A stretch of 27,042 nt of DNA from a virus, in the IMG/VR virus record IMGVR_UViG_3300032893_000242, positions 1-27,042 of that record; one strand, given 5' to 3'. The notes under the pieces were generated by a model, which ran no database searches, had not been told where the DNA came from, and saw only the letters and a program-made list of their open reading frames with translations. Shown here in pieces: positions 8,170-23,112 of the stretch; position 1 is the first letter of the stretch, and the number at the start of each line of letters is the position of its first letter. A program made the position numbers and the translations under genes.

Positions 8170-8871
8170 TCACCCCTTTGGGGAAACGGGTTGCGGCACC
8201 GTATTCCCGATCAGGAACTTCTTTCTAGCTTCCTCGGTTTGTGCAGACGACAGCAACGACTGATAGTGAGCTTCCCAACTCATCGCTGCTTTCGGATCAT
8301 CGGATCCGGCGCCAAAGTTTCTCTGGTAGGCAGACGCGAACACCATGGAGGCTGCCACCAATAGATCGGGAAAATAGACAGACAGGACCGACGTCGTTTG
8401 ACTGACATAGAGTGGCGTGAAGCGCTGCGATCCAACTACTTCTACGTTGTAAGATTGATCTGGAAATGGCCCCACAATCATCTGTTGAGACGTAATGGGC
8501 GCGAAATACTGAGGAATGGTTGACCCGTTTGACGAAGGCCACAACGCATCCAGGAGATCAACCGAACACTTTACCAGAGGATTTCTTGTTCCGGAATCTG
8601 CGCTTGAAGTCCCTACGGGAGTGATGACGTTCAGTTGCTCGACGGCAATATATGTCCCCGCATCCGTGGGAAGGGTGAACATGCGTGTACCCGGAATCAA
8701 CGTCCCAGTCGAATCCACGATCGTATTGTCCAGGAGATCAAGATCTCTTTGAAGCCGTAACTCCGCATCATCAAGCATGTTCGGGATCATGGTCTGGAAA
8801 CCAGAGTCCGCGATCGGCACAACCATCAAGTTGGCGATGGACGAGACGTATGTGGTGTACGTCAATGACAT
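8170..8871 (-). CDS. Phage adaptor family protein (head-tail connector)
   Basis: The 233-residue protein begins with a helical segment (SLTYTTYVSSIANLMV) and contains MLDDAELRLQRDLDLL. It then has a middle beta region and YFPDLLVAASMVFASAYQRNFG followed by DDPKAAMSWEAHYQSLL. This helix-strand-helix arrangement, with PDL-x-x-AASM and W-x-x-HYQ elements, is typical of adaptor proteins that form a ring beneath the portal in SU10-like and related podoviruses. The strand content and length (about 230) fit the family. A second adaptor-like gene lies at 10642-11334, so this one may form a lower ring or a fibre platform. Start and stop overlap or nearly touch neighbours (TGATG at 8871), showing operon membership. 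Confidence 0.7.
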   Translation of the reverse strand: MSLTYTTYVSSIANLMVVPIADSGFQTMIPNMLDDAELRLQRDLDLLDNTIVDSTGTLIPGTRMFTLPTDAGTYIAVEQLNVITPVGTSSADSGTRNPLVKCSVDLLDALWPSSNGSTIPQYFAPITSQQMIVGPFPDQSYNVEVVGSQRFTPLYVSQTTSVLSVYFPDLLVAASMVFASAYQRNFGAGSDDPKAAMSWEAHYQSLLSSAQTEEARKKFLIGNTVPQPVSPKG

Positions 8872-10259
8872 CAGGTCATTCCATAAATGCGAATAGTGCC
8901 CGTTTGGATGTTTCCGGAATTAAAGGCAAAGTTGATCCCCGTTACCGGAGATGCGTTGGAAAACATGCCATTAACCACCGACATGGCAAGCGTCGTCGTC
9001 CCTAATGCTCCCGGCGTTGGATACGTCACCCTGCCCTCAAGAGCCTTATTGGCAACCGATCCGGACGGATTGAACAAACGGATGTACCCGTTCACACCAT
9101 TGACCGTTGACGTCTGAAGCTGCGTTGTAGAGCGCGTGCCAGTCAAAAGTAATGCGGCGGTCGATGTATCCGTTACCAGCACCGAGCTGACATTGATTTG
9201 CGCAATCGAAACATAGCCTGATGTCGTAAATGCCGACCCAGATGTCGCAAGGGTGATCTGAAGCGTAGTTGTCTGGGTTGCCGGACAAACATTGTCAAAC
9301 ATAACTAGATAGTTGCGATACGTAGACGTAAAACTACTTGTGTCGTTGGTTGAGGCAACGTTATTTGGAAGTAGGGTATTCAACAGAACAAAATTGGGGG
9401 ATGCCGTCCCCACAACACCTGTCGCACTGACCTGAAGAAAGTTAGCAACTCCGCTCGATTGGCTCGCAAGAACGAGGGACCCGGTAAAAATCGACGTCCC
9501 GACAACGCCAAATATGTTCGACGTAAACTGCGTAGTCCCAATTACCTGAAACACATTGGAAGTAAACGTCGCGCTCCCAATGACATTGAAATCAGACGTG
9601 AACGTAGCCGTCCCAACGACATTGAAGAATGTGGAGGTAAAATTAGCCGTGCCGTTCACATTGAACGATGATGTGAATTGCGTGGTCCCAACTACACCGA
9701 AGGCGGAGGTAAATAAGGTAGTCCCGACAACGTTAAATACGCCGGTCAGAATAGACGTTCCGACCTGATTGAGCGTTCCGGTAGCTACAATCCCGCCACT
9801 AAATGAGGCAGTACCGATAACACTGAGAGTTCCCGTCAGCCCTATACTAGTAGCAAGTTGCGCGGTCCCAACTGCGTTATTCGCAAGCTGCGTACTTCCT
9901 ACCGCGCCAGAAGTGATGTTGCTTTGCTGGACAGCCAAAGCACCGAGCTGGGTAGACCCAACAGCCCCTGAAGTGATGTTTGACTGTTGAACCGCCAAAG
10001 CCCCAAGCTGGGTTGAGCCGATTCCGGCATTGGCAACAAAGGCCACGATAGCCGTGGTAGTCCCAGTAGTGGCAAGCGACGTCCCAACCGTCTTTACAAA
10101 CGAGTTGGCGGACGGCAACGACAGCATCTGGGTAAGAGACAACTGAACGGATTGCCCAACGCTATTGGAAGTCTGGACAGCCTCAAATAGCTCGTTACCA
10201 GTCACCGTAGTTCCGGCAGGCAAATCAACAATGGTGACTGAAGCAGCAAACGTCGTCAT
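8871..10259 (-). CDS. Repeat-rich tail fibre protein
   Basis: This 462-residue protein is a fibre by its architecture. Residues 80-128 hold 20-residue repeats of the type STQLGALAVQQSNITSGAVG. Residues about 140-258 hold ten units of 12-13 residues built around VGT-x-x-FTS-x-F, a beta-helix-like shaft. A C-terminal globular domain (about 300-462) contains SFTSTYRNYLVMFDNV and ends with NFAFNSGNIQTGTIRIYGMT, a tip seen in many phage fibres. It is likely trimeric and surface exposed. Its ATG at 10259 overlaps the previous stop by four bases (ATGA), and its stop overlaps the adaptor start by one base. Repeat number could change by recombination. The host receptor cannot be predicted. Confidence 0.85.
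   Translation of the reverse strand: MTTFAASVTIVDLPAGTTVTGNELFEAVQTSNSVGQSVQLSLTQMLSLPSANSFVKTVGTSLATTGTTTAIVAFVANAGIGSTQLGALAVQQSNITSGAVGSTQLGALAVQQSNITSGAVGSTQLANNAVGTAQLATSIGLTGTLSVIGTASFSGGIVATGTLNQVGTSILTGVFNVVGTTLFTSAFGVVGTTQFTSSFNVNGTANFTSTFFNVVGTATFTSDFNVIGSATFTSNVFQVIGTTQFTSNIFGVVGTSIFTGSLVLASQSSGVANFLQVSATGVVGTASPNFVLLNTLLPNNVASTNDTSSFTSTYRNYLVMFDNVCPATQTTTLQITLATSGSAFTTSGYVSIAQINVSSVLVTDTSTAALLLTGTRSTTQLQTSTVNGVNGYIRLFNPSGSVANKALEGRVTYPTPGALGTTTLAMSVVNGMFSNASPVTGINFAFNSGNIQTGTIRIYGMT
9480..9845 (-). repeat. 36-39 base coding repeats for the fibre shaft
   Basis: About ten imperfect tandem units encode a 12-13 residue motif (consensus F-N-V-V-G-T-x-x-F-T-S-x). Wobble positions differ between units, so the array is old at the DNA level although the peptide pattern is kept. 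It corresponds to residues about 140-258 of the fibre protein. Confidence 0.8.
9901..10020 (-). repeat. Two 60-base tandem repeats in the fibre gene
   Basis: Bases 9901-9960 and 9961-10020 align without gaps and encode two copies of a 20-residue unit containing LGALAVQQSNITSGAVGSTQ. A more diverged partial third unit lies at about 9841-9900 (STQLANNAVGTAQLA). The unit probably builds the base of the fibre shaft. Confidence 0.85.
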
Positions 10260-10641: not shown

Positions 10642-11334
10642 TCACGACCAATACCCCATCATCCTAGGGGCGACCTTCACAGGGGTGTTCTGAAGATCCT
10701 GCTCAGACGCCAGGTCCCACGCGTCCTTGTAGTCCTGCTTCCTTTTGTCCTCCAAGGTCGGCGCGTACACTCGAGCAAGCCTGTAAGCCATGCCAGCGCA
10801 CAGGGCGTCGTACCAGCGAACCGGGATGGCTGGGGTTTGCCCTGAAGATATGGAAGCGTCCTGGATCTGGGTGCAGCACCAGTACGTGAAGGTATACGGG
10901 CCTCCACTATCAGGGACCGGATAGACCGTGACCGTAGGGGTCGCTTGCCTATTGAGGTAATAGACGGTCGGAGGGGCCTGGGTTTGTTTCTGCGGATACC
11001 CGGAATAGTCATCCAGGGAAATGGGCGTCATGAAGATGTCGGTCGTCACCCCGCCTGAAGTGGTGGAGCGATAAGCATCCAGTATCATCACGACATTTGC
11101 AGGAAGCGTATAGGTCGCCGTCCCCTGCACCAGGGAAAGCGTGTTCTGAGCTACGGTAAACAGGTTGACCTGACGGTTGCTCCATTCCGAATTGAGCAGC
11201 AAGCTCAATTGCCGGCGGGCGGTCAGGAAGTGCTCCTGGACAAGCTTGGATGTGGGAATGCCGCAGCGCTCAAAGGCGTCTAATACGGCCTCGCCATTCG
11301 ATAAGCTGTAATTCCATGTTCCGCTGCTGGTCAC
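10642..11334 (-). CDS. Phage adaptor-like protein, first gene of tail module
   Basis: The 230-residue protein begins with NGEAVLDAFERCGIPTSKL followed by an EHFLTARRQLSLLLNSEWSNRQVNLF helix. A beta region (GTATYTLPANVVMILDAY) and YSGYPQKQTQAPPTVYYLNRQ follow, then TVTVYPVPD and RWYDALCAGMAYRLARVYAP. These elements match a common phage family placed at the head-tail junction, probably an adaptor or joining protein. The GTG at 11334 has GGAG seven bases upstream; a TTG at 11340 would be too close to that site. It follows an 86-base gap that holds a small hairpin and a 12-codon leader-like ORF ending on this start (GTGA). It may therefore be the first gene of a regulated tail transcript. Confidence 0.7.
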   Translation of the reverse strand: MTSSGTWNYSLSNGEAVLDAFERCGIPTSKLVQEHFLTARRQLSLLLNSEWSNRQVNLFTVAQNTLSLVQGTATYTLPANVVMILDAYRSTTSGGVTTDIFMTPISLDDYSGYPQKQTQAPPTVYYLNRQATPTVTVYPVPDSGGPYTFTYWCCTQIQDASISSGQTPAIPVRWYDALCAGMAYRLARVYAPTLEDKRKQDYKDAWDLASEQDLQNTPVKVAPRMMGYWS

Positions 11335-11350
11335 AACCAATCTCCAGGGC

Positions 11351-11365
11351 CCTCAAGCTCTGAGG
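11351..11365 (-). promoter_or_regulatory. Small hairpin with GAGCT loop before the adaptor gene
   Basis: The minus strand reads CCTCA-GAGCT-TGAGG, a 5-bp stem with a 5-base loop, ending 16 bases before the GTG at 11334. A similarly built element (5-bp stem, GAGCT loop) precedes the portal gene. No T-run follows, so it is not a standard terminator. It may affect translation start. The stem is short and could be chance. Confidence 0.3.
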
Positions 11366-11425
11366 TCATGAATTAGGTCGCAGCGCGCGAACGGATTGAT
11401 TTGTACTAGATTTGCGTCACAAAGG

Positions 11426-11776
11426 CTAGCGGTGGATCAATAGGGCGTTAAAAGCATTGGCTATTTCGGCATCACCTTTTGGATCATGGTAATCGCCGTA
11501 AACCCCGCCACCCCATTCCGTGTCTATAGACACGTTCCTGATTTCGATTTCCTTGGGATCGTCGTAACCATTTTCGTATCCATCAACCAGGACCCGCATA
11601 TCTCGTGGGTATTGCAACAATAGGTCAATCATCTCCCCAACGGTCCACGGTTTGCGAAATTCACGTTCTTCAACCTCTCCGTCCAAAACCGGCGCGACTT
11701 GATCAAATCGCGTTGTTTCGCCTTCGACCTTCAGGGCTACTCCAAAGTTTTGCAACTTAAATTCAAAGTCTGCCAT
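11426..11776 (-). CDS. Small conserved protein, last gene of the sugar island
   Basis: The protein has 116 residues and starts MADFEFKLQNFGVALKVEG. The middle reads PWTVGEMIDLLLQYPRDMRVLVDGYENGYDD, a pattern known from small proteins of unknown function in phages and bacteria (VGE-x-I-x-x-L...P-x-D-x-x-V-x-V-x-GYE-x-GYDD). The end holds EWGGGVYGDYHDPKGDAE. No catalytic motif is visible. The ATG at 11776 is one base after the stop of the glycosyltransferase gene. Longer in-frame starts would run deep into that gene and give low-complexity Arg-rich sequence, so they are rejected. A regulatory or accessory role is possible but unproven. Confidence 0.65.
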   Translation of the reverse strand: MADFEFKLQNFGVALKVEGETTRFDQVAPVLDGEVEEREFRKPWTVGEMIDLLLQYPRDMRVLVDGYENGYDDPKEIEIRNVSIDTEWGGGVYGDYHDPKGDAEIANAFNALLIHR

Positions 11777-11777
11777 G

Positions 11778-12539
11778 TTAAGCCGCCGGCAACATCGCAA
11801 TCTGGGCCTCGTCCATTGGCTGAATAGGCGCCATAGGAGCGCTCTGCCCCTCGATCTGATCCAGGTAACGTCCGGCATAGTCGTACGGCCCGACATGGCT
11901 GATCCTGTGCCCGATCGCCGCCCAGACCTGCCCCCCGCATTCCTTCCACCTCAGACAGAACGACAGATCCTCCGAAATCACGCCCCGATCCGGGAAGTCC
12001 ATCTTTTCAAAGAACCGCAAAAGCCTATTCGTCCCCGTCTGTCGCAATGTCTCCCCTGCAGGATGGAGCTGAAGCCGGGTGTCGATCAAGTCGGGGAATT
12101 TCGCCACCATCTTCTCAATACAGTCCCTCCGGATGAGGGTACAGCCGAACCCAACCCCCTCAACCAGCATGAAATCGCCCCGACGCTCTGTCTGGGAAGC
12201 TCCAGTACCTGATCCAGCCCAGGAAACCGGCTCTTTCCGTTGACGGTAGATCGTCCCCACAACGGGCTCATTGAACATCAGCATATCCGTCACGAGATCC
12301 GGAGGAATGCCCATGTCCGCGTCAATGAACAGGATATGAGACGACTGCGGCATGGTGTCATACCATACCGTCAGAGCCATGGACCGGAGTTCGGCAATGT
12401 CAGGAAAGGAAAGAGTAGAGATGCCCCCTCCAATCCCTTTCATGGTCAGGTGCTGCCTGATCGCGTGAGTGCTGAGGAATGTCGCCGCCGAGATAATTTG
12501 CCCGAACGCCGGAATGAACAGGAACACGTCGTTAGCCAT
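11778..12539 (-). CDS. Glycosyltransferase-like protein (GT-A fold)
   Basis: This 253-residue protein opens with a strand and loop, DVFLFIPAFGQIISAAT. It has SHILFIDADMGIPPDLVTDML at about 68-88, where D73-A-D75 is the DxD metal site of GT-A glycosyltransferases. EPVVGTIYRQRKEP, FMLVEGVGFGCTLIRRD and ISEDLSFCLRWKECGGQVWA follow, the latter with the acidic ED often serving as catalytic base region. The overall layout matches a phage glycosyltransferase family related to Anp1/GT62-like enzymes. It would move a sugar from a nucleotide donor to an unknown acceptor. The ATG at 12539 shares its first base with the HNH gene stop (TAATG). Together with the GT2 gene at 18682-19596 it brackets the sugar island. 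Confidence 0.7.
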   Translation of the reverse strand: MANDVFLFIPAFGQIISAATFLSTHAIRQHLTMKGIGGGISTLSFPDIAELRSMALTVWYDTMPQSSHILFIDADMGIPPDLVTDMLMFNEPVVGTIYRQRKEPVSWAGSGTGASQTERRGDFMLVEGVGFGCTLIRRDCIEKMVAKFPDLIDTRLQLHPAGETLRQTGTNRLLRFFEKMDFPDRGVISEDLSFCLRWKECGGQVWAAIGHRISHVGPYDYAGRYLDQIEGQSAPMAPIQPMDEAQIAMLPAA

Positions 12540-13051
12540 TAGATGATTACTCCGAAGCTCTTGTGATATTTCATGGACGCCCTGACATACTCAGCATGAG
12601 CATCTTCGGGCGTGTCGAAAATGCCAAGATACTTACACCTGCCATCAACCGTAATCTGAGCCACGAACTTGTGCTTAGATTTCGTGTGGCGCGTTACACC
12701 TTTAAAGCCAGTCGTATTGTGTTTTTTCTTGCTAACATTTCTGTTGTTTTCGTTTCGATTGGCTTCTCGCAAATTATTGATGCGATTGTCATTCTTTACC
12801 CGGTTTTTGTGGTCAATCTCTTCGCTGGGCCATTGCTGATGGACATAAAACCACGCCAAGCGATGCGCCATGTAGCGCAACCCGTTGACCTGAATTATGA
12901 TATGTCCATTCGTGTCACTTTGACCCGCAACGTCGCCAACCTTGACGCGATTTGACGTTACCTCTTTCCAGCGAAAGACTCCCGTCTCTGGATCGTATGC
13001 CAACAGCCGCGTCAGCTCGGCGTGGCTTAATTTTTCCTCGCGGGGGGTCAT
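12539..13051 (-). CDS. HNH endonuclease with AP2 DNA-binding domain
   Basis: This 170-residue protein has an N-terminal region with ETGVFRWK and GHIIIQVNG, then an HNH_3-type core, AHRLAWFYVHQQWPSEEIDH (62-81), with NDNRINNLREA (87-97). H63, D80-H81 and N88/N92-N93 are the expected metal-site and finger residues. Residues 115-168 form an AP2-like domain (GFKGVTRH, KFVAQITVDGR, YLGIFDTPEDAHAEYVRAS). This is the usual make-up of free-standing homing endonucleases of phages. Both ends are coupled: an ATGA overlap with the methyltransferase and a TAATG overlap with the glycosyltransferase. Parts are much AT-richer than neighbours (about one third GC at 12721-12780), suggesting recent arrival. No intron or split host gene is apparent nearby. 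Confidence 0.85.
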   Translation of the reverse strand: MTPREEKLSHAELTRLLAYDPETGVFRWKEVTSNRVKVGDVAGQSDTNGHIIIQVNGLRYMAHRLAWFYVHQQWPSEEIDHKNRVKNDNRINNLREANRNENNRNVSKKKHNTTGFKGVTRHTKSKHKFVAQITVDGRCKYLGIFDTPEDAHAEYVRASMKYHKSFGVII

Positions 13052-13725
13052 GCCTTTGTCATGTTGAAGAAAAAGATGTCTGTAGCTTCGCGAGAGCGCT
13101 CCACCGCCTCCCCAAGCATAACCGCGTAATCCCTGGGGATACTGTAATGCAGAGGCGATTGCCTGTGATTGATGATGATCTCATCATCCCATAGGTAATA
13201 ACTGTTCCAGTACCGCTCCTGCTTGAGCAGGTCGTCTATTTGTTCTTCATTGAACCGGCAGTATTCAATGAACGGATATTTTGAAACCATCCGGAGTTCT
13301 TTGCCGAAAACCCAGCCGATGTATCGATGGTGATGATATCCCCTGAACGGAGGGGATCCACCGTCCACCCCCCTGCCAAGCTCAGCCATCGGGGAGGGGA
13401 CCTCAATGTATCCTCGTTTGCCAACCCGCGACATTTCCTTGGCGATGGCGAACGGATTGAAAGAGTCTTCCAGAACATGCCTCGCAAACACGAAATCAAA
13501 TTCCTTGTCCTTGAACGGCATCGGTTCATTTACGATGTCGCACTTGACAAGGTTCTTGACCCCCGGCACATCCACAAAGTCTACGCACACATCAGCTCGC
13601 TTGAGCGGAGCATGTCCCGGCCCGACCTCGAGCACGCGATCATTTGACTGAATGACTACGTTGCTGATGTAGTCGATGACCGACTGTACGGGGGCCCAGT
13701 ATTTTTTGCTGGATTCGGTGAGCAC
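13048..13725 (-). CDS. SAM-dependent methyltransferase
   Basis: This 225-residue class I methyltransferase has motif I at 31-39 (VLEVGPGHAP), a probable motif II acidic strand (CVDFVDVPG), then EFDFVFARHVLED, a Methyltransf_11-type motif IV to post-IV segment, and GYIEVPSPM as motif VI. A His-rich loop (YHHHRY) and a Tyr/Trp-rich C-terminal cap may bind the substrate. Similar short methyltransferases occur in LPS and capsule gene clusters and in phage sugar islands. The start is GTG at 13725, directly after the TAG of the radical SAM gene, with GGAG nine bases upstream. It is coupled to the HNH gene by ATGA. The substrate is unknown; sugar methylation is inferred from the island. Confidence 0.8.
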   Translation of the reverse strand: MLTESSKKYWAPVQSVIDYISNVVIQSNDRVLEVGPGHAPLKRADVCVDFVDVPGVKNLVKCDIVNEPMPFKDKEFDFVFARHVLEDSFNPFAIAKEMSRVGKRGYIEVPSPMAELGRGVDGGSPPFRGYHHHRYIGWVFGKELRMVSKYPFIEYCRFNEEQIDDLLKQERYWNSYYLWDDEIIINHRQSPLHYSIPRDYAVMLGEAVERSREATDIFFFNMTKA

Positions 13726-14883
13726 CTACAAAAACTCCGCATGATCCGGCAATGGCGTGACAGGAAAATCTACCTTTCCATTCTTCCAATCGAACAGCCA
13801 TTGATTCGTGTGAGTTTGCAAACACTGGGTCCCACATCTCTCGCGAGGATCAAATTGATCGCTTGCTAGATAGCGAACCATTTCCCAATAACGATCGCTA
13901 GCCCAAATATCCCGGAAGCGAGTTCGAAGTATCGAATCGACATGGAATTTCTTGAATTTTTCATTGAAATGAAACCCGCAGCTCGTTATTAACCCGTTGC
14001 CGCTCATCTGCAATTGGAAAGGGACGCCAAGACATCGGCTGTATTGACGCTTTCCTTCTTCGGCTAATCGTGCCCACTTGACGACTACACGAAACGTATC
14101 GTCGCCCATCGCTTCTACTTCGCGAAAAGTGTCGTACAGCGCGTCATACTTCTTGTAGTCAACGCCAAGGTGACCTTCGTCGTTGTCGCTGCAATGCTTA
14201 TAGATTAGATAGCCGGGTCGGATTTCTTTGGCCAGCAAAGCCAGGGGCATGATCTGATCATGAAACTCAGGCATGGTGACCATCTGCATGTTCACAACGC
14301 AGGCGAGATTGTCACGCCGGACAATTTCCATCGCGTCCTTTACGTTTTGAATGACTTGATGGTAATCGCGCTCCTTTAGCCCCATGATTTCTTTGTATCG
14401 CTTCATCTCACCAGCGGAGAAATTGAAGCGAAGATATGAGATGTGCGGAAGGATGCGTTCCAGAACTGGCTTCTTCAAGCGAACGCCGTTGCTGCCAATA
14501 CCAATCTTGATGCCAAGCTTCGCAGCATACTCAATCGAGTCTTCGTACCACGGTACGACGGTCGACTCGCCGTCACTAATCAAGCTTATGCCCTTGACGC
14601 CAATTTCCGCAGCATCTTCCAAGAACTCAAATGCGTGTTTCTTTGTGATCTCTCCGCCGTCTTCGGATGCTTGCATCGTCGCAAAACAAAAAATGCACGC
14701 CGCATTGCACTTTCTGGTCCAGGCGACATCCATTGTGACGGGAGCAATCCTTTCGCCCCTGTCCCACGCAAGAACTCTGTCCTTCCACCAGCCGATTTTG
14801 CTTCCGTCCAAGATAAGATCGTTGACCGAAACGACTGGAGATCCGGTGACTACATGGTCAAAAAACTCCGGTAGGCTGCTCAT
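13726..14883 (-). CDS. Radical SAM enzyme with SPASM-like C-terminus
   Basis: This 385-residue protein carries the radical SAM cluster motif C59-x3-C63-x2-C66 in WTRKCNAACIFCFA. A SAM-binding GE-type loop follows (SDGEST, about 103-108), and IGIGSNGVRL marks a later barrel strand. The C-terminal part has C284, C302, C350 and C354 arranged like a reduced SPASM or twitch auxiliary cluster domain (GLITSCGF, RERCGTQC). Family members include sugar, peptide and cofactor modifiers, so the reaction cannot be told from sequence alone. Its position directly between the TPP pair plus small protein and a methyltransferase suggests sugar or nucleotide-sugar modification. The ATG at 14883 overlaps the 65-residue gene by four bases. 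GC looks lower than in the preceding sugar genes. Confidence 0.85.
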   Translation of the reverse strand: MSSLPEFFDHVVTGSPVVSVNDLILDGSKIGWWKDRVLAWDRGERIAPVTMDVAWTRKCNAACIFCFATMQASEDGGEITKKHAFEFLEDAAEIGVKGISLISDGESTVVPWYEDSIEYAAKLGIKIGIGSNGVRLKKPVLERILPHISYLRFNFSAGEMKRYKEIMGLKERDYHQVIQNVKDAMEIVRRDNLACVVNMQMVTMPEFHDQIMPLALLAKEIRPGYLIYKHCSDNDEGHLGVDYKKYDALYDTFREVEAMGDDTFRVVVKWARLAEEGKRQYSRCLGVPFQLQMSGNGLITSCGFHFNEKFKKFHVDSILRTRFRDIWASDRYWEMVRYLASDQFDPRERCGTQCLQTHTNQWLFDWKNGKVDFPVTPLPDHAEFL

Positions 14884-15077
14884 ATTCTTGCTCGCTCTTC
14901 TGGAGTCATAAGATTTCTAAGTTTCGAATCGTCAGGCATCGTTTTCTTGAACACTTCAATCGGAAGGCCGGTCGACTTGCGAAGATGGACTTCCAAATCA
15001 AACATGAGCTTGGCTTGCATATTACCATCTATGCTCTTGCCGAAACTCATAATGATTTCGTAGTCCTTACTTTTCAT
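14880..15077 (-). CDS. 65-residue protein between the TPP pair and radical SAM gene
   Basis: The small protein begins MKSKDYEIIMSFGKSIDGNM, has a helical middle (QAKLMFDLEVHLRKSTG), a short strand (PIEVFKKTM), and ends DDSKLRNLMTPEERARI. No Cys pair or membrane segment is present. I do not recognise a family. ATGA overlaps join it on both sides to the E1 beta-like gene and the radical SAM gene, so equimolar synthesis with them is likely. It could be an accessory subunit of either enzyme, for example replacing part of the missing transketolase C-terminal domain, but that is speculation. Confidence 0.7.
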   Translation of the reverse strand: MKSKDYEIIMSFGKSIDGNMQAKLMFDLEVHLRKSTGLPIEVFKKTMPDDSKLRNLMTPEERARI

Positions 15078-15619
15078 TTCGCCCGCGCTTCCCTGTACTG
15101 GTCCGTGAACTCAACCAGGATACTCGACCTCTCCGACCTCAATGCCGCCTCGTACCCCCTGACAATATCCGCTGCCTCCATCAGCAGAACCACATCCACC
15201 GTCCGTAACATCCTCGAAAACGCAAAGCTGAAATCGTCATCGTGTTGCGGCCCTGGATTGAACGGATGCTTTGAAGGCGTTGCGACGCGAACAATAACTT
15301 TCGGTTTATAGTCCGAATACAGGGGTATCCGGTCAAGATGGTTGATCAATTGATCGGCGGCCCTGAGCATGAAATTCCATCTCGGGATTATGCAGATCGG
15401 TAAAACCCCTTCCAGTGACATGCCGATGCTCATACCTACCTGAAGCTCTTCCGCCACCGGCATTTCAATTCGTTTGCTCTGAGGCACGTCCCGGAACGTG
15501 TCGCTCATGCTGGTTCCGGGATTGCCAACGCCCTGACCGAGAAAGACCGTGTTCGGCTCTCGAGCACAGATGCTCATCGCGCGGCATAGCTCGGCGTGGT
15601 AGTTCAAAACGACACCCAT
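15074..15619 (-). CDS. TPP-dependent E1 beta-like subunit, truncated to the Pyr domain
   Basis: This 181-residue protein matches the pyrimidine-binding half of E1 beta and transketolase-type enzymes. It starts MGVVLNYHAELCRAM, then FLGQGVGNPG, RIEMPVAEELQVGMSIGMSL (with E57/E58 in the place of the catalytic glutamate that activates thiamine), IPRWNFMLRAADQLINHL and KVIVRVATPS. It ends about where the usual Transketolase_C domain would begin; full E1 beta proteins have about 320 residues. The ATG at 15619 starts within the end of the E1 alpha-like gene; an upstream in-frame start at 15643 has a less typical N-terminus. It should pair with the protein encoded at 15604-16182. The acceptor and donor are unknown. 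Confidence 0.8.
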   Translation of the reverse strand: MGVVLNYHAELCRAMSICAREPNTVFLGQGVGNPGTSMSDTFRDVPQSKRIEMPVAEELQVGMSIGMSLEGVLPICIIPRWNFMLRAADQLINHLDRIPLYSDYKPKVIVRVATPSKHPFNPGPQHDDDFSFAFSRMLRTVDVVLLMEAADIVRGYEAALRSERSSILVEFTDQYREARAK

Positions 15620-16182
15620 TTTTTCAGCCCGACATGAGGCCACGCCAGTTGGTAATTGTAGTGCATGGTCGTCAGATTATGGTGCTTCCCCCAGACTTCC
15701 TCAGTGTCCGTGCAGACTGATTTCCCGTTGTTCTCAATGACGAACTGGATCGGCAAATCGTGTCCGCTCGCGTAGCGTTTTGTCTCGTGATAGATGCCGC
15801 TCATCGCAGTCATGTCCCCGACAAAGCACCAGACCTTTTCCTTGCCTCCCCTTCTCTTGATGGCCCACGCAATCCCCATGGCGATCGGAGCGATGCCCCC
15901 TACAATCGCTGAAGAAATGATCTTGTACTTCGGAAACGTAAGGGCGATGGAATGGCCGTCATGAATGGCCTTGCGAAGCTCTTCAGGAGGGACGCCCTTT
16001 AACAGACAATGCAGGTGAGTCCTCCATGCCCCGCAAACCCAGTCGTCAAGCTGGACGTTCTTGAAAATGTCCAAAAGCGTCTGCTCATTCCCTCCAGCAA
16101 GATGCACGGGAGCCTTGATCAGACCTTTCTCAAAGTCCTCCGCAATCTTGGCCTCAAAGGCGATGAGATCTTCAGGAGTCAC
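15604..16182 (-). CDS. TPP-dependent E1 alpha-like subunit, compact
   Basis: This 192-residue protein carries the PP-binding half of a thiamine-diphosphate enzyme. WRTHLHCLLKG (53-63) corresponds to the R-x-H region of E1 alpha. SSAIVGGIAPIAMGIAWAIK (90-109) is the hinge helix. The TPP/Mg motif is GDM at 122-124 with NN at 151-152 (FVIENNGKS), the usual GDG-x(about 26)-NN in a GDM form. Family E1 alpha subunits have about 320-400 residues, so both ends are reduced. It opens with GTG at 16182, overlapping the SIS stop by four bases (GTGA). No E2 or E3 gene is present, so it is not a pyruvate dehydrogenase complex. A two-carbon transfer to a sugar is the favoured inference. Confidence 0.8.
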   Translation of the reverse strand: MTPEDLIAFEAKIAEDFEKGLIKAPVHLAGGNEQTLLDIFKNVQLDDWVCGAWRTHLHCLLKGVPPEELRKAIHDGHSIALTFPKYKIISSAIVGGIAPIAMGIAWAIKRRGGKEKVWCFVGDMTAMSGIYHETKRYASGHDLPIQFVIENNGKSVCTDTEEVWGKHHNLTTMHYNYQLAWPHVGLKKWVSF

Positions 16183-16772
16183 TTCGCCTTCCCCTCAATC
16201 GCAATGAACTCATCCAAAATCGAGTGCAGGATGGCCAAATGGGAAATCTCAACCGTTCCATATTCAATTGACGGCACGTAGAAATTCACATTGCCCTTCG
16301 TTCTCAGGAAATTCCCCTCCCCAAAACCGGACAAGGTAACCACATTCATCCGCTTGGCTCGTGCAATGTCACAAGCTCTAAGGATGTTCTCGCTCATCCC
16401 GGACGATGAAATCGCAAATAGTACATCTCCTATATTCCCGTGCCGTTCGATCTGTTCGGCATAGACGTGCTCGTAACCATAGTCGTTGGCGTAGCAGCTC
16501 ATCATCGCGGTATCTCCGGGTCCAAAGGTCGGGAAGCCGCCATTTTTCTGGTAGTCGATCGCCATGTGTGAAGCGATAGCCGCAGACCCGCCATTCCCGA
16601 CAAAGAACAGCCTTGCCTTGTGCAGGCCGTGCAGCGTGATGAAGTTCATCACCGCAGCAAATCCGCCTTCCTCAACCTGGAAATCTCTGAGCGCATAACC
16701 AAGTCGAGCAAAACTATCCCGCTCGTAATTAAAGGGATGCGGAGCGCAGATGAGTTTAATGCCGTCGTTCAT
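16179..16772 (-). CDS. GmhA-like SIS domain sugar-phosphate isomerase
   Basis: This 197-residue protein is one SIS domain with the GmhA/DiaA layout. FFVGNGGSAAIASHMAID (57-74) is the phosphate-binding loop, ISSSGMSENILRA (121-133) the second SIS motif, and VTLSGFG (145-151) the third. H178 in the ISHLAILHSI helix is in the place of the catalytic His of GmhA. D73 stands where GmhA has a catalytic Glu, a conservative change. GmhA turns sedoheptulose 7-phosphate into D-glycero-D-manno-heptose 7-phosphate, the substrate for the HldE kinase, and an HldE-like gene lies just upstream. The ATG at 16772 overlaps the stop of an 11-codon mini-ORF by four bases, and GGAGG lies ten bases upstream. Confidence 0.85.
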   Translation of the reverse strand: MNDGIKLICAPHPFNYERDSFARLGYALRDFQVEEGGFAAVMNFITLHGLHKARLFFVGNGGSAAIASHMAIDYQKNGGFPTFGPGDTAMMSCYANDYGYEHVYAEQIERHGNIGDVLFAISSSGMSENILRACDIARAKRMNVVTLSGFGEGNFLRTKGNVNFYVPSIEYGTVEISHLAILHSILDEFIAIEGKAK

Positions 16773-16788
16773 GCCAGCAACGCCTCCA
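16769..16788 (-). repeat. 20-base direct repeat, copy 2
   Basis: The minus strand reads TGGAGGCGTTGCTGGCATGA, identical to the copy at 17073-17092. It contains the Shine-Dalgarno-like GGAGG, the last codons of the mini-ORF and the start codon of the SIS gene. Identity ends abruptly at both sides. Confidence 0.9.
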
Positions 16789-16804
16789 GGTCAGTCGCGG
16801 TCAT
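16769..16804 (-). CDS. 11-residue mini-ORF coupling two genes
   Basis: The frame MTATDLEALLA starts on an ATG that overlaps the stop of the winged-helix gene by four bases and ends on a TGA that overlaps the SIS gene start by four bases. Its last six codons are an exact copy of the last six codons of the HldE-like gene, apart from the first base of the first. It therefore looks like a relic of a duplication that keeps ribosomes moving to the next gene. Whether the peptide itself does anything is unknown. Confidence 0.5.
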   Translation of the reverse strand: MTATDLEALLA

Positions 16805-17076
16805 TCAATGTTGTCCGGTTCTGGCATGACCCACTTCACTTCTGGCATGGGCATTTTCAGGACATGTTCTATGAATGCCCTGCCTTTGGGGGTAATGCTA
16901 AATTTATATCCTTTTTCGACGCTACCAGTTGCGGATAGCAATCCAAGTAACTGCAATGCGCCGTAGCTATATTTAGCAATGTTTTCGTCATCCACCGAAG
17001 GAGGCGGTGCTGAGTCTGCTGCTGCGTGTCTCCACAGATAGTAATGGACCAGCATCTGAAGATCACGCCCTATCAT
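16801..17076 (-). CDS. Small winged-helix-like protein
   Basis: This 91-residue protein starts MIGRDLQMLVHYYLWRH. The core is YSYGALQLLGLLSATGSVEKGYKFSITPKGRAFIEHVL, a helix-turn-helix followed by a beta wing with the T-x-KGR turn common in winged-helix proteins and small phage proteins. The end, MPMPEVKWVMPEPDN, matches a frequent LP-x-P-x-x-x-WV-x-P tail in such phage proteins. It might bind DNA or act in a protein complex; neither is shown. The ATG at 17076 overlaps the kinase gene stop by four bases. The gene is bracketed by the two copies of a 20-base direct repeat, so it is probably a late insertion between the kinase and isomerase genes. Confidence 0.7.
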   Translation of the reverse strand: MIGRDLQMLVHYYLWRHAAADSAPPPSVDDENIAKYSYGALQLLGLLSATGSVEKGYKFSITPKGRAFIEHVLKMPMPEVKWVMPEPDNIE

Positions 17077-17092
17077 GCCAGCAACGCCTCCA
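17073..17092 (-). repeat. 20-base direct repeat, copy 1
   Basis: This copy lies at the 3' end of the HldE-like gene and includes its last codons, its stop and the ATG of the winged-helix gene. The repeat-to-repeat distance is 304 bases. It probably marks the original kinase-isomerase junction. Confidence 0.9.
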
Positions 17093-18467
17093 CCGTCTTG
17101 ATAATTTCTTCCCTCGTTACGTGCCTCTGATGCCCGAGAATAGACACCATGATCGCCCCCACCACATTCCCGACAAACGCCGCCACAGAAAGCGGCAACC
17201 CACACGCTACAAGAGGAGCCGTCACGGCAAACACCGCATCCCCCGCGCCGATCGTATCAATCCCCCCGTCAACCATCGCGGGGTTATGGCTGTGAATGCC
17301 TTCCGAATAGCTGTACGACCCGTGCCTTCCATGCGTGATCAGAATGTTATCGCACTTGGTATAGCCAGACAGGGATTCGGCAACCAGCCTGATGTTTTCC
17401 TTCTGCTGACAGGTCGCCAACCTAGCTTCCGGCTCATCCACGCAAACATACTTGGCGTTCTGATACTTCGTGACACGGTTGAACCCATAATTGCCTGCAT
17501 TGGCCTGGCAATTCACTGCAAGAAATGGAGCATCGACCAAAATCCCTGTTTCGATACTCCCCATCAATCCATGCCCAAAGTCGTTCACTACCACAACGTC
17601 GAAATCCACCATGGCATCCATCAGGCGATCGCGGAACACGTACCTGTCCTGGTGAAGCAGATCGATTTCCTTGGAGGAATAGACGTCGAACAGCTTTCGC
17701 TTGAAATCCTGGTCGACATATCGAGTCTTAGTGATCGAGCATGATCTCGGGTGCGTGAGGACTTCATAGTTCTTCCATTCGCCATGTTTTGAAGTGGCGA
17801 GAACTCCTCCCTCAAACTCTTCCCTGCCAGTCTGTACCGAGGCCAGCATCATTTCCTTTGATGACTTCCCAAGCCCATGCACATACTTGTAGACGTCGAT
17901 AATTGTCTCCCCAACGAACAGGATCTTCTTTGAATCGGCCTCATCAAAAGCCCTTAGAATGTCTGTCTTGGCTCCGTCCTTCTTCAGTTCATCAAGATAA
18001 CGACAGGTCTCCTCGCTGAACTTCTGGCCCTTCAAGAGGGATGATGACGACCATTTCTGCGACGTCGTAAACCTTAGTTCACCCCCTACCTGAGTGATAG
18101 CGTCGATCTCGTCCTGAAAACCAGGAACGTCCACGCTCGAGGCATAATCGATGCCCTTGACGTAGTATTTTGGCTTGAGTTTCCTGATCAGATTTGCGCA
18201 GGTCTTGTCATCATTGATGATTACTTCATCGACGAAATGTAATGCCCTCAAGGCTTCTGCGCGTTGTTCGGCCGTAAAATGTGGCCTACCCATTCCCTTG
18301 CTGATATGGCGGTCTGTCGTGACTGACACCACCAGATAATTGCCGAACTGCTTGGCTTCTTTCAGGTGCCTGATATGGCCAAGATGCAATAGATCGAAAC
18401 AGCCATGACAAAGAACAACCTCTCCTGGCCTCCAGTCTGCATCAACGGCCCGCGCTTTCACCTTCAT
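17073..18467 (-). CDS. Nucleotidyltransferase-PfkB kinase fusion, HldE-like with swapped order
   Basis: The 464-residue protein has an N-terminal cytidylyltransferase-fold domain: CHGCFDLLHLGH (20-31) with the H28-x-G-H31 nucleotide site, a YVKGIDYA strand, and a SSSS-LL loop near 140. The C-terminal domain is a PfkB/ribokinase-type kinase: FEGGVLATSKH, VVVVNDFGHGLM, YVCVDEPEARLA and DTIGAGDAVFA with the catalytic GAGD at 407-410. In E. coli HldE the kinase comes first and the nucleotidyltransferase second, so the order is reversed here. By analogy it would phosphorylate a heptose 7-phosphate at C1 and later attach a nucleotide. The start at 18467 is chosen for its ATGA overlap with the previous gene; an ATG at 18482 is possible. 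The stop is coupled to the winged-helix gene. Confidence 0.85.
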   Translation of the reverse strand: MKVKARAVDADWRPGEVVLCHGCFDLLHLGHIRHLKEAKQFGNYLVVSVTTDRHISKGMGRPHFTAEQRAEALRALHFVDEVIINDDKTCANLIRKLKPKYYVKGIDYASSVDVPGFQDEIDAITQVGGELRFTTSQKWSSSSLLKGQKFSEETCRYLDELKKDGAKTDILRAFDEADSKKILFVGETIIDVYKYVHGLGKSSKEMMLASVQTGREEFEGGVLATSKHGEWKNYEVLTHPRSCSITKTRYVDQDFKRKLFDVYSSKEIDLLHQDRYVFRDRLMDAMVDFDVVVVNDFGHGLMGSIETGILVDAPFLAVNCQANAGNYGFNRVTKYQNAKYVCVDEPEARLATCQQKENIRLVAESLSGYTKCDNILITHGRHGSYSYSEGIHSHNPAMVDGGIDTIGAGDAVFAVTAPLVACGLPLSVAAFVGNVVGAIMVSILGHQRHVTREEIIKTVEALLA

Positions 18468-18685
18468 AGCCCCATCAAGCATTCGTCGCCGTATTTTCTG
18501 ACATATATTCCAATGACGTTTGCCACAGCTTTTGTAACTTCAGGCAATTCTACTGGGCATTCACGAGAAACATGGCCGCAAGTTTTGCATTGCCCGACAA
18601 TGCGACCTTCATAAAGCTTTGCGCAAAGAGCTTGCGTTGCATCATAAAGCATCATCGTCTGTTCTGCGGTTAAATTACCTGTCAT
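18464..18685 (-). CDS. Small Cys-containing protein
   Basis: This 73-residue protein has a helical N-terminus (LTAEQTMMLYDATQALCAKLYEG), then QCKTCGHVSRECP with C-x2-C and a third Cys seven residues on, which may form a small metal site with a nearby His. The end (ELPEVTKAVANVIGIYVRK) is helical. I do not recognise a family. It is coupled by ATGA overlaps to the GT2 gene upstream and the HldE-like gene downstream, so it is a true member of the island. It might be an accessory or regulatory protein of the sugar pathway. Confidence 0.65.
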   Translation of the reverse strand: MTGNLTAEQTMMLYDATQALCAKLYEGRIVGQCKTCGHVSRECPVELPEVTKAVANVIGIYVRKYGDECLMGL

Positions 18686-19596
18686 ATGCTCACCCTCAAA
18701 GCCTTGGCGAACATTTCCTTTTCTTGATCGGGCATGCCGTAATCGTTCAAGAACTTCGGCACCATCGCAATCGCTCTCTGTTTGACGCGGTTGTATCTCT
18801 CGTCAAACGGAAGATTGCCCGCCCACTTCGACAGTTCAGCTGACTGAGCCCGAACAGTCTGGTTGATCAAACGCGAACGAACCTCAGTCAAAGGATGATG
18901 CGTCTTCAGAATGCTCTTCAACCAGTCAGGACAAACGAACTGTTCGTTATCGATGATGTCGTGCGCCTGCTTCCTTCGATACAAATACGCACAATCATAG
19001 AACGTCGCCCACCAGCCGGGCTCTCTCATCTCCTGCGTAACACCCGGCCTCGACTGATCGGTTTTGACAGCCGCGAACGAAACCCGCCCAATGATTTTGG
19101 CTAGATCATCCGTCCAGTGATCCACAAACCAGTAAGGAAATAGAGGTGGGAAGATCACCCCGCCCATCAATTCGACTAGTTTTGCCGTCGGCGCGACAGC
19201 TCCCGTAAAAGACAGATTAGCAAGATGACCATAAACCATCCCGATCTGATCAGGGAAACGAGAAGCCGCATCAAGAATGAGGCTGTCATATCCTGGAGTG
19301 ATGTAAGGATCGTCATCGGCAGCAACCAGATAGACGTCCGCTTGTGTCGTAACCGCCCTGTTCCACTTATCGGCAATCGTGTCTTCGCGCGGCTTGACGT
19401 TCGGAATAACCCTGCTGTCTTTAACGCAGTCAAGGCCAGACAATAACTGCAACGATCTCTGCAGCGACGGATCATCCTCGTCAAGCTGGACATACATGAC
19501 CGTTTCAGGATGCGTCCAGTTCGCATATGACTTGATAATCGTGTCAGTCAGACGCTCTGGTCTGTTTCGTGTAGCCAAGGTGATACAGAGGCGCAT
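18682..19596 (-). CDS. Family 2-like glycosyltransferase
   Basis: This 304-residue protein starts MRLCITLATRNRPERLTDTI, the usual GT2 N-terminal strand and helix. VMYVQLDEDDPS (33-44) is the nucleotide region. DVYLVAADDDPYITPGYDSLI (87-107) has the DxD metal site in D94-D96. A central FPYWFVDHWTDDLAK and a Trp-rich WWATFYDCAYLYRRK follow as probable acceptor-binding parts. No membrane segment is present, so it should be cytosolic. It would use a nucleotide sugar, possibly that made by the following genes. The ATG at 19596 has GGGAAAGAG just upstream; the stop overlaps the next gene by four bases. Host LPS, capsid protein and phage DNA are all possible acceptors. Confidence 0.8.
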   Translation of the reverse strand: MRLCITLATRNRPERLTDTIIKSYANWTHPETVMYVQLDEDDPSLQRSLQLLSGLDCVKDSRVIPNVKPREDTIADKWNRAVTTQADVYLVAADDDPYITPGYDSLILDAASRFPDQIGMVYGHLANLSFTGAVAPTAKLVELMGGVIFPPLFPYWFVDHWTDDLAKIIGRVSFAAVKTDQSRPGVTQEMREPGWWATFYDCAYLYRRKQAHDIIDNEQFVCPDWLKSILKTHHPLTEVRSRLINQTVRAQSAELSKWAGNLPFDERYNRVKQRAIAMVPKFLNDYGMPDQEKEMFAKALRVSI

Positions 19597-19833: not shown

Positions 19834-20547
19834 TTATTCGTCCAGCTTGTAGTTGCCGGCCTGCTGATTGATGTTCAGGACATCAAGACTTTTGTCGATT
19901 TGCATCCTGACGCCCCCACCAGTTCCCTTGTACCGTCCGTCCATTTCAAAGCCTGGACCCAGGCTCTTCTTCACGCTGCCAAGCTTCAGAGCTTCATTGC
20001 GATCGTTGATCAACTGCTGCGCGTTGCGAATATCTTCAGCGCGCGCCTCATCAGTCAGAACCTTCGGTCTTTCCATCAGGATCTGCTGTCCGCGTACGAT
20101 GTTGCCCTTAGTGCCAGCAGGAACCAGGGTGCCGGCATAGCGCTCGGCCGGGACTGGTCTCCAGCCGTTCTGATGCATCATGTGATTCTGATCGAGCAAA
20201 ATGTCCGAGTTGCCTGCAACAGACATCGGATTCCATTGATAGGTCCAGCCTTTCGGAATCATATCCTTCGGGATTTCAAAGATGTCGCCAACCTGGGAAC
20301 GAGTGCGCGACAGAACCTCTCCGTTGCGACCCGTAACTTCCATACGACCATCAGATTTTGACCGCGCGCCCCGACGAACTTCCGTTCGTGCCGCCGCCTT
20401 TTCTTCAAAGATCGGCGGTTTCTTGACCTTGCGTTTAACTGGGGCTTCTGCCTTCCGCGCTGCCCTGTTCGCTGCAGCAACCGCTCGAGCCTTGGCCATT
20501 CTCTCGGCCGGCGTCATCTTCGGAGCCTTCGTGATTTCGTCGTCCAT
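19834..20547 (-). CDS. Conserved head-module protein with basic N-terminus
   Basis: The protein has 237 residues. The first 60 are Ala/Lys/Arg-rich (TPAERMAKARAVAAANRAARK, PVKRKVKKPP) and may be disordered or bind nucleic acid or scaffold. The rest holds IPKDMIPKGWTYQWNPMSVAG, NGWRPVPAERYAGTLVPAG and ILMERPKVLTDEARAED, elements I recall from a widespread phage protein encoded close to capsid genes. The last part (SLDVLNINQQAGNYKLDE) is likely structured. It is not a recognised capsid fold and lacks the length for one. A minor head or decoration role is inferred from its position directly after the scaffold-like gene. The ATG at 20547 has GGAG nine bases upstream. Confidence 0.65.
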   Translation of the reverse strand: MDDEITKAPKMTPAERMAKARAVAAANRAARKAEAPVKRKVKKPPIFEEKAAARTEVRRGARSKSDGRMEVTGRNGEVLSRTRSQVGDIFEIPKDMIPKGWTYQWNPMSVAGNSDILLDQNHMMHQNGWRPVPAERYAGTLVPAGTKGNIVRGQQILMERPKVLTDEARAEDIRNAQQLINDRNEALKLGSVKKSLGPGFEMDGRYKGTGGGVRMQIDKSLDVLNINQQAGNYKLDE

Positions 20548-20550
20548 GAC

Positions 20551-21522
20551 TTAGCTCTCCGTAAATGATCGGTCGTACTGACCACTTTTCATAAGCGCCA
20601 ATTTTCGGCGGGCGTATTCCTGCAGCCCGACCGGATCACCTTTTTTAAATTTCCCTTTTGGATCCGAAAAATTCCAGACCACCGTCCCGTCTACCGCGGC
20701 CTGCGCTTCTCTTGCCGTCAGGGTCACCGCCGCTCCTCCCGTCGCACCATTCGATGATACAGAAGCCCCAGGCGCCACAGGAGGGGCGGCAGATTTTGGT
20801 TTGGGTTCAGTCTTCGCTTCGGTCTTCGTCTCAGTCTTTTCTTCTTTCTTAGTCAGACCAAGATATTCCTCAACGCGCGCGAAATATTCCGGCGTATCAG
20901 GAATAAGATCCTCTGCCTGCGCAATAGCATCGGCCGCAGTGAGTTTCTTCAATCCTCTCTCAGACCTCACAAACTCAGGATGCGCCCTGATCCACGCCGC
21001 CGTCTGTGGCGTCCTGCCAGTAGCAAACGCCTCCACGGGATCCGTAGGGACTTGCTGTTTCGGAGGAGCCTTGATACGCGCTTCAATATCCGACTTGGCT
21101 TCATCAAGCCTGACCAGAGACGCCTTGGCCTCCGCAAGCCTCTCCTGCGCTTCAATCTCGGCTTCTACATCGCCTGCAGCTTTCGCGGCCCGAATAGCAG
21201 CCTTGGCCGATTCAACTTCCTGCTTCGAGGAGCCAATCGCAGTTGTGATCGTATCGAGATGGCTCGAGGTTTCCCGCTTGCGAGCGCTTTCCGCGTCCTG
21301 ACGGTGCTTTGCAGCCTCTATCTCAGCCTGCCGTCGCCGCTCTTCTTCCTCTTGAACGCGCTTTTCCTGGAGCTGCGCACGTTCTTCCAAAGCTTTGTAT
21401 TGAGCCTTCAGGTCTTCAAGGACATCATCCTTGACCTCGACCTTCTCTTCCTTGACCGCCTGCTCAATATTTGCCTGCTCGTCAGGAACGACGGTTACGG
21501 CAATCTCTTCCTCGTCAGCCAT
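20551..21522 (-). CDS. Scaffold-like acidic coiled-coil protein
   Basis: This 323-residue protein is strongly charged. Residues about 25-150 are a long heptad-like coiled coil (LEDLKAQYKALEERAQLQEKRVQEEEERRR and onward), followed by a helical middle with FATGRTPQTAAWIRAHPEFV and IPDTPEYFARVEEYLGL. A Lys/Glu/Thr- and Pro-rich linker leads to a C-terminus, EYARRKLALMKSGQYDRSF, with a basic helix such as scaffolds use to touch the coat protein. Composition, size and place between portal and head genes fit a scaffolding protein. No major capsid gene follows it in this window, which is unusual. The ATG at 21522 has GAGGG four bases upstream. Confidence 0.7.
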   Translation of the reverse strand: MADEEEIAVTVVPDEQANIEQAVKEEKVEVKDDVLEDLKAQYKALEERAQLQEKRVQEEEERRRQAEIEAAKHRQDAESARKRETSSHLDTITTAIGSSKQEVESAKAAIRAAKAAGDVEAEIEAQERLAEAKASLVRLDEAKSDIEARIKAPPKQQVPTDPVEAFATGRTPQTAAWIRAHPEFVRSERGLKKLTAADAIAQAEDLIPDTPEYFARVEEYLGLTKKEEKTETKTEAKTEPKPKSAAPPVAPGASVSSNGATGGAAVTLTAREAQAAVDGTVVWNFSDPKGKFKKGDPVGLQEYARRKLALMKSGQYDRSFTES

Positions 21523-21529
21523 TCATCCC

Positions 21530-21952
21530 TCAATAAATCAATGACGGGTCAGACACGCGACCGCGAATGAACACGTCTTCAATGAGACGGCAGGACAGCC
21601 CATCATTGGTCTTGCGGCGGTCGCGGATGAACATCTCAAAGCCATCGGAAGGTCGGTAAACAACCCAGTCACCAGGCTTGACTGAAACCCCCCCAAACTT
21701 GGCAACAGTGTCGTCTTCAAATGCCGTTGGTCCTACCTTGAGAACCAACCCGACCTTGCCCTGAAATCGGTTTTCGTCCAGCATCTTATCAGGCACGATG
21801 ATGCTGCCGATCTTCTCAGTGCCTGAGTAAGTCGCGACCAGAACCAGATTATGAAAGACCTCGTAGTCGCTGAGATCCCCGGCCGCATCAAGTAGAGCCT
21901 GCGCGGGATTGTGGCTCGCCTGCTGGGCAAGCTCACGAAGATTAGTTCTCAT
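21530..21952 (-). CDS. GroES-like co-chaperonin
   Basis: The 140-residue protein has the GroES beta-barrel pattern: VFHNLVLVATY at the first strand, then KIGSIIVPDKMLDENRFQG as the mobile loop equivalent with the hydrophobic IIVP, GKVGLVLKVGP, and VKPGDWVVYRPSDGFEM near the end. GroES has the same order (R-x-L-V/x-GG-I-x-x-P...G-x-V-x-x-V-G...V-x-x-GD-x-V-x-Y). An N-terminal helix of about 25 residues (LRELAQQASHNPAQALLDAAG) and a C-terminal IRDRRKTNDG segment are extra. It should help the host GroEL fold a phage protein, most often the major capsid protein. No GroEL is encoded here. The ATG at 21952 has a strong GAGGGG upstream. It lies between head genes. Confidence 0.75.
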   Translation of the reverse strand: MRTNLRELAQQASHNPAQALLDAAGDLSDYEVFHNLVLVATYSGTEKIGSIIVPDKMLDENRFQGKVGLVLKVGPTAFEDDTVAKFGGVSVKPGDWVVYRPSDGFEMFIRDRRKTNDGLSCRLIEDVFIRGRVSDPSLIY

Positions 21953-21962
21953 CTAGTCCCCT

Positions 21963-22187
21963 CTAGTTCTTTTGGGCCTTCTCGATCTCGCTACAGATGT
22001 GCAGCGCTTCATCGATGCCCTCTAGAACCCCAATGCTGCGTTGATACTGTGCCCAGTCCGTAACTGCTCCGCTCAGAATGTGCTCACAACGAGCGTTGCG
22101 AACACTTTCCAGTTGTTTGCGTATCGTCCGAATATCGTGGACATGATCAAGAGCAAATACGCGAAATCCTTCGCTCACGCTTCCCAT
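21963..22187 (-). CDS. Small conserved head-module protein
   Basis: This 74-residue protein contains ALDHVHDIRTIRKQLESVRNARCEHILSG and DWAQYQRSIGVLEGIDEALHICSE, a helix-rich pattern common in small phage proteins encoded near the portal. The function is unknown. The ATG at 22187 overlaps the preceding gene by 13 bases, while an in-frame GTG at 22178 gives a 4-base overlap (GTGA) and better spacing from GAGG, so the true protein may be three residues shorter. Its sequence looks like a helical hairpin that would bind a larger head protein. Confidence 0.65.
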   Translation of the reverse strand: MGSVSEGFRVFALDHVHDIRTIRKQLESVRNARCEHILSGAVTDWAQYQRSIGVLEGIDEALHICSEIEKAQKN

Positions 22188-22939: not shown

Positions 22940-23112
22940 CGCTTCAGCTCCTTGGGCTCGTAAGCCGCCTTCCCAGTGGTTTTCTTGTCACCGCCATAGT
23001 TTCGGATGGTGTCCGTCACATCGGCATCTTTGGCCTTCTCAACAAACTTCTGAACGCCCCGCAACCAGTTCGGGTCGTTTTTATGGGCGGCAGTTTTATA
23101 CGGATGAGCCAT
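22936..23112 (-). CDS. 58-residue protein after the portal gene
   Basis: The short frame encodes MAHPYKTAAHKNDPNWLRG, then QKFVEKAKDADVTDTIRNYGGD and a basic end (KKTTGKAAYEPKELKR). The ATG overlaps the portal stop by one base (TAATG), and the TGA overlaps the next ATG by four bases (ATGA). That fit on both sides, plus sensible composition, makes it a real gene. It is basic and probably helical. The function is unknown; its place suggests a small head or portal-associated protein. Confidence 0.7.
   Translation of the reverse strand: MAHPYKTAAHKNDPNWLRGVQKFVEKAKDADVTDTIRNYGGDKKTTGKAAYEPKELKR

Follow-up and report, generated by a model that had tools for sequence, protein, structure and literature searches.

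Two routes to two-carbon branches on sugars have been described, one catalysed by PDH-E1-like pairs (AviB1/B2, Pau11/12 and KbDH) and the other by YerE (PMC4425429, PMC12247030). AviB1/AviB2, Pau11/Pau12 and KbDH-alpha/beta are sugar-branching enzymes of the alpha-keto-acid dehydrogenase 2 type (PMC4425429, PMC12247030), and enzymes of both the E1-alpha/beta type and the YerE type place carbon branches onto keto-sugars (PMC4425429, PMC4753412, PMC12247030, PMC10338323). The structure 8rph is that of JanthE, a YerE-like enzyme that couples alpha-keto acids to ketones (PMC12188165). Here we analysed a 27,042-bp IMG/VR virus fragment, IMGVR_UViG_3300032893_000242 (the whole of this stretch is called the window), which carries a cassette of genes for two glycosyltransferases (GTa and GTb), an HldE-like fusion (NT-KIN), a GmhA-like SIS isomerase, the two halves of a minimal thiamine-diphosphate (ThDP) enzyme (E1a and E1b), a radical SAM/SPASM enzyme (rSAM) and a SAM-dependent methyltransferase (MT). 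No account of this exact gene set was found in the open-access literature.

The genes of the window, nearly all of them on the minus strand, run in the order terminase end, portal, GroES, scaffold, a 237-aa protein, cassette, gp4-like adaptor and tail. Gene calls placed the cassette (11778–19596, minus strand) between the scaffold/head genes (19834–25385) and the adaptor (10642–11340), in agreement with an earlier note on this DNA, and all the genes named in that note were recovered by Pfam and PHROG searches on the minus strand, roughly where it had put them. Its interval of 11426–19596 did contain the cassette, but the first 350 bp (11426–11778) are an unrelated small ORF, and its gene list was correct except that it omitted an HNH/AP2 homing endonuclease that has been inserted among the cassette genes (12539–13051, minus strand; PF13392, 3e-12; phrog_99, 3e-66). 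Two other minus-strand ORFs matched no family, namely one of 73 aa (18464–18685), for which no homologue was found in relatives, and a doubtful one overlapping the end of NT-KIN (16801–17205), whose sole match was a 33-residue stretch in the relative L016. The catalytic motifs are intact: HxGH of the nucleotidyltransferase, GAGD of the kinase, the Glu of E1-beta and CxxxCxxC of the radical SAM enzyme.

Elsewhere in the window, a GroES-like co-chaperonin gene that is kept in relatives lies within the head operon (21530–21952), and a fibre-like tail protein contains many near-repeat stretches (8871–10259; VVGTxxFTSxF). In relatives, the coat gene, a decoration gene and a gene for a 418-aa protein stand between GTa and the adaptor; in the window these are missing at about 11340–11778. 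The coat gene was present in all 9 of the 9 relatives tested and is absent from the window, which reflects deletion, relocation or assembly error. GC skew was considered as proof of a chimaeric window and was not decisive, since relatives also shift.

Relatives were gathered with the portal, kinase and radical-SAM proteins as queries. The full order GTb-NTK-SIS-E1a-E1b-rSAM-MT-GTa (NTK standing for NT-KIN) was found in L016, L019, L021, L023, L024, L025, L032 and L083, and a partial order in L018, L020, L026, L075 and L085, so that the order is repeated in more than 10 other viral contigs with 36–79% protein identity for most genes; the gene-neighbourhood search proposed in the earlier note thus found the homologues together in other viral contigs and elsewhere. 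The cassette-bearing contigs belong to one family of uncultured tailed phages of approximately 65–73 kb, and L032 gives a weak hint that the host may be a member of the Rhizobiales. Two cassette-less relatives (L006 and L007) retain portal, GroES, scaffold and, alone among the cassette genes, GTa, so that the cassette behaves like cargo with the 237-aa gene on one side and GTa on the other. The term 'island' therefore holds in that the genes are coupled and cargo-like, but they are a stable trait of the family rather than a one-off.

Between L016 and L024, all cassette genes with an estimable dS had a much lower dN (for instance, dN = 0.009 and dS = 0.632 for the radical SAM gene; dS of MT was saturated, hence no estimate), and strong purifying selection acts on the cassette. 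The recurrence of the gene order in more than 10 contigs, together with dN far below dS, indicates that the cassette is more than chance. The radical SAM gene is the most constrained of the cassette: in the comparison of the window with L016, synonymous change has mostly reached saturation, and the protein is still 93% identical. Recent transfer as the cause of this identity was rejected because saturated synonymous sites point to constraint. L073 has neither the nucleotidyltransferase nor SIS and retains the kinase, the ThDP enzyme, the radical SAM, the methyltransferase and the glycosyltransferases; this counts against the pathway proposed below and suggests that activation may sometimes depend on the host.

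Neither GTb (18682–19596, minus strand; phrog_14945 glycosyltransferase, E = 1.6e-6) nor GTa (11778–12539, minus strand; phrog_1574) matched a Pfam family. The AlphaFold (AF2) models of both proteins, with pLDDT of 88 and 82, respectively, match GT-A glycosyltransferases, and both carry the GT-A fold and the DxD motif. The best PDB matches of GTb are GT-A glycosyltransferases, and those of GTa are STIV A197, ColGalT1, LH3 and the PBCV-1 capsid glycosyltransferase, so that the modelled fold of GTa resembles viral and protein glycosyltransferases. GTb co-occurs with the cassette and is absent in cassette-less L006/L007, whereas GTa adjoins capsid genes in relatives, cassette-less ones included. 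Next after GTa, the relatives carry a decoration-like gene and then the coat gene (86–98% identical among cassette-bearing relatives), showing that the cassette sits inside the head operon. A SASA-type carbohydrate esterase gene lies between GTa and coat in one close relative (L024:13621–14592).

NT-KIN (17073–18482, minus strand; PF01467 and PF00294) consists of a nucleotidyltransferase (residues about 1–158) and a PfkB kinase (about 160–469), in the reverse of the kinase-first order of HldE. Both catalytic domains are motif-complete, HxGH and GAGD being unchanged across eight homologues, and the protein scored 126 bits against the HldE profile, short of the cut-off of 521. SIS (16179–16772, minus strand; PF13580) scored 90 bits against the gmhA profile, under the cut-off of 209, and its best PDB relatives are phosphoheptose isomerases (E = 8e-21). 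Every SIS in the window's phage family has Asp at the position of Glu65 and retains His180, residues which we take to be catalytic in GmhA. With scores so far below the cut-offs, a sugar other than heptose is possible. On the other hand, canonical heptose genes stand beside the radical SAM and E1ab in sister clusters, supporting a heptose-derived substrate: a woesearchaeal contig (L062) encodes, within 5 kb of radical SAM and E1ab, a fusion of a kinase (352 bits, cut-off 345) with a SIS isomerase (208.9 bits, cut-off 209.45) along with a GmhB of 161 bits (cut-off 149.6), and the kinases of viral L120 and L145 scored 295–299 bits to heptose-7-phosphate kinase. The heptose route put forward in the earlier note thus gains support from the kinase and GmhB of L062 and is weakened by the sub-cut-off scores in the window itself, while its more general sugar-nucleotide route, with a GmhA-like and an HldE-like enzyme and two glycosyltransferases, is supported, with homologues together elsewhere. 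The lack of HldD and GmhB that it pointed out was likewise seen in eight long family records (64–73 kb, six of them cassette-bearing), where no HldD-type epimerase or GmhB-type phosphatase scored over the cut-off; the L016 record contains one sub-threshold HAD match. An archaeal contig (L054) brings together SIS, kinase, HAD phosphatase, nucleotidyltransferase, two radical SAM genes, E1ab, an ALS-like gene and an epimerase. Two cyanophage genes called 'phosphoheptose isomerase' (L009:12474–12812 and L010:16980–17291) were rejected as SIS relatives because they align to no SIS motif; one of them has a weak HAD_PNKP match.

E1a (15604–16182, minus strand; PF00676, E = 1.7e-13; PDH E1 alpha, 79 bits) and E1b (15074–15643, minus strand; PF02779, with a PDH E1 beta match) correspond to the two ThDP-binding/activating domains, about 190 aa each. 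The E1_dh and Transket_pyr domains of a PDH E1-type enzyme are present, as is the cofactor-activating Glu of E1b, which is invariant among the homologues compared, and the ThDP motif of E1a reads GDM..N in place of GDG..N. Across all loci, GDM rather than GDG was found in 113 of 143 E1a homologues. E1b (189 aa) is without PF02780, the transketolase C-terminal/E1-beta C-terminal domain, and the window has no E2/E3 partner genes. In L013 and L015, whose cassettes otherwise match, E1a and E1b are absent and an enzyme of ~600 aa is found instead together with a sugar O-methyltransferase (over the cut-off in L013); L022 combines SIS, nucleotidyltransferase and a separate kinase with the same type of ~600-aa enzyme and radical SAM. 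The closest solved structure to these three enzymes is 8rph (371, 379 and 366 bits for L013, L015 and L022, respectively), followed by acetolactate synthase (284, 293 and 258 bits). This exchange of ThDP enzyme class at one locus, the strongest functional evidence found, points to carboligation rather than transketolase chemistry, and in its sugar-cluster context the split enzyme is more likely, as judged from sequence, to add carbons to a ketone sugar than to make sedoheptulose 7-phosphate.

The radical SAM enzyme (13726–14883, minus strand) has the CxxxCxxC motif and matches PF04055 over the cut-off (1.1e-13), and its C-terminal SPASM domain lies just under it (PF13186, 19.4 bits against 21.5, E = 0.0014). 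Relatives of E1a were found in at least 569 viral contigs and in 47 stretches of 84,980 species genomes, a ratio that is indicative only because the two scans used slightly differing patterns; among the 47 stretches, L032 is a phage contig of the window's family. E1b adjoins E1a in 71 of 72 cases. In other phages E1ab is surrounded by genes of the kind that make NDP-keto-sugars, encoding SDRs that resemble GDP-mannose dehydratase, DegT aminotransferases and B12 radical-SAM proteins; within 5 kb of 74 non-redundant viral E1a loci, an SDR occurred in 45 and a DegT in 44. One phage B12-radical-SAM gene is split by an intein (L002:14434–16965; PF14890). An SDR was found in none of the 18 viral loci with a SPASM radical SAM versus 45 of the 56 without (0/13 versus 24/30 after clustering at 65%). 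The common descent of the phages confounds this difference, and cellular E1a loci showed no such exclusion (7/13 with and 17/26 without). From this exclusion we infer that in the viral loci that carry it the SPASM radical SAM may supply or modify the acceptor.

Taken together, we consider it an even call that the phage encodes a pathway to an activated higher-carbon sugar, running from SIS to glycosyl transfer. In this pathway, SIS would convert a ketose phosphate (host-derived sedoheptulose 7-phosphate or a close analogue) to the aldose, and the kinase and nucleotidyltransferase halves of NT-KIN would then yield an NDP-heptose, with the 7-phosphatase coming from the host or being unneeded. 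The SPASM radical SAM would make or modify the attack site, most simply by turning an alcohol into a ketone, and the split ThDP enzyme would decarboxylate an alpha-keto acid, probably pyruvate, and ligate the acyl unit to the carbonyl, so that the sugar gains a carbon branch or a longer chain; in relatives the YerE/JanthE-like enzyme would be interchangeable at this step. MT (13048–13725, minus strand; PF08241 above cut-off) would cap the extended sugar, and the glycosyltransferases would move it, most likely onto the virion, since the cassette is part of the head operon and, in relatives, directly precedes the coat and decoration genes. Virion glycosylation is the simplest target on the basis of gene position and fold only. 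More tentatively, and on balance doubtfully, the minimal two-domain ThDP enzymes, which are enriched in viruses, and a SPASM radical SAM that makes a ketone on NDP-heptose might together produce a new branched capsid sugar.

The earlier note had proposed transketolase-type chemistry, and a small transketolase could indeed supply the GmhA substrate: sedoheptulose 7-phosphate would become an ordinary NDP-heptose through the GmhA/HldE-like enzymes and be decorated by the radical SAM and MT. E1a directly adjoins SIS and kinase in the window family and stands beside SIS, nucleotidyltransferase and kinase in L145 and L054, and split transketolases do exist (weak PDB matches 8k03 and 6yak). However, family profiles prefer PDH E1 (79 bits) to transketolase (15 bits), E1b matched no transketolase in the PDB, and most viral E1ab loci have SDR and DegT and no SIS. 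Transketolase identity was thus rejected on profile scores, the lacking C-terminal domain and PDB matches, and with a YerE-like carboligase standing in for the split enzyme in relatives, we regard this route as unlikely.

As for where the sugar goes, the same sugar could be placed on the host surface (LPS/capsule), remodelling the receptor against superinfection or against rebinding of progeny to debris. The cyanophage relatives of E1ab do lie in LPS/capsule-like sugar clusters and the YerE products are O-antigen sugars, but the position of the cassette within the late head operon and the retention of GTa even without the cassette make this destination somewhat improbable. Among the cassette genes, moreover, no membrane glycosyltransferase, flippase or polymerase was found. 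Attachment to phage DNA bases as a shield against restriction, for which the Thanatos phage offers a precedent by glycosylating its DNA with pentose (PMC12838424), is very improbable given the late morphogenesis position; in addition, no thymidylate-synthase-family (base hydroxymethylase) gene was found in ten family records, while the control was positive in 9 of 14 genomes, a result that speaks against modified DNA. We give equally little credence to a radical SAM/SPASM enzyme acting on a peptide, apart from the sugar genes: its best profiles include, at low scores, peptide maturases and the PqqE/MoaA families, and SkfB is a weak PDB match, but no precursor peptide gene was recognised, and related radical SAM proteins also accompany E1ab in bacteria, in DPANN archaea and in unrelated phages (L011, L050, L053, L060 and L067).

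If the proposed branched-sugar pathway is true, these phages not only transfer sugars of the host but also produce an unusual donor themselves, and phages hold a large pool of compact putative carbon-carbon ligases, with matches in at least 569 viral contigs as against 47 in the species genomes. The radical SAM and ThDP carboligase would be a testable pairing, and the cassette would be an immediate candidate for making capsid glycans.

Among known systems, mycobacteriophages Che8 and Rita are similar in encoding glycosyltransferases and in having a major capsid protein that bears glycans (PMC11256854); the window family also encodes a putative donor-making pathway, and its capsid glycosylation is a prediction. 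The ADP-heptose pathway (GmhA, HldE, GmhB and HldD) shares homologues of SIS, the PfkB kinase and the nucleotidyltransferase, whereas the phage fusion has the reversed order, scores are below cut-offs, and GmhB and HldD were not found in the family records. The clusters of cyanophages P-TIM68 and S-SM2 likewise unite E1ab, PfkB kinase and nucleotidyltransferase, but their E1ab is fused, SDR and Zn-ADH are present, no true SIS was found, and they lie outside the head operon. YerE/JanthE is the nearest solved structure of the enzyme that replaces E1ab in L013 and L015, although this enzyme type is absent from the window and dideoxy-sugar dehydratase genes are not nearby. The split enzyme itself is like AviB1/AviB2, Pau11/Pau12 and KbDH-alpha/beta (PMC4425429, PMC12247030) in that two PDH-E1-like subunits form a ThDP enzyme that belongs to a sugar pathway; compared with these full-length enzymes, the phage subunits are truncated to ~190 aa, have the GDM motif and no E1-beta C-terminal domain, and their acceptor seems to be made by a radical SAM or from heptose, not by a 4,6-dehydratase.
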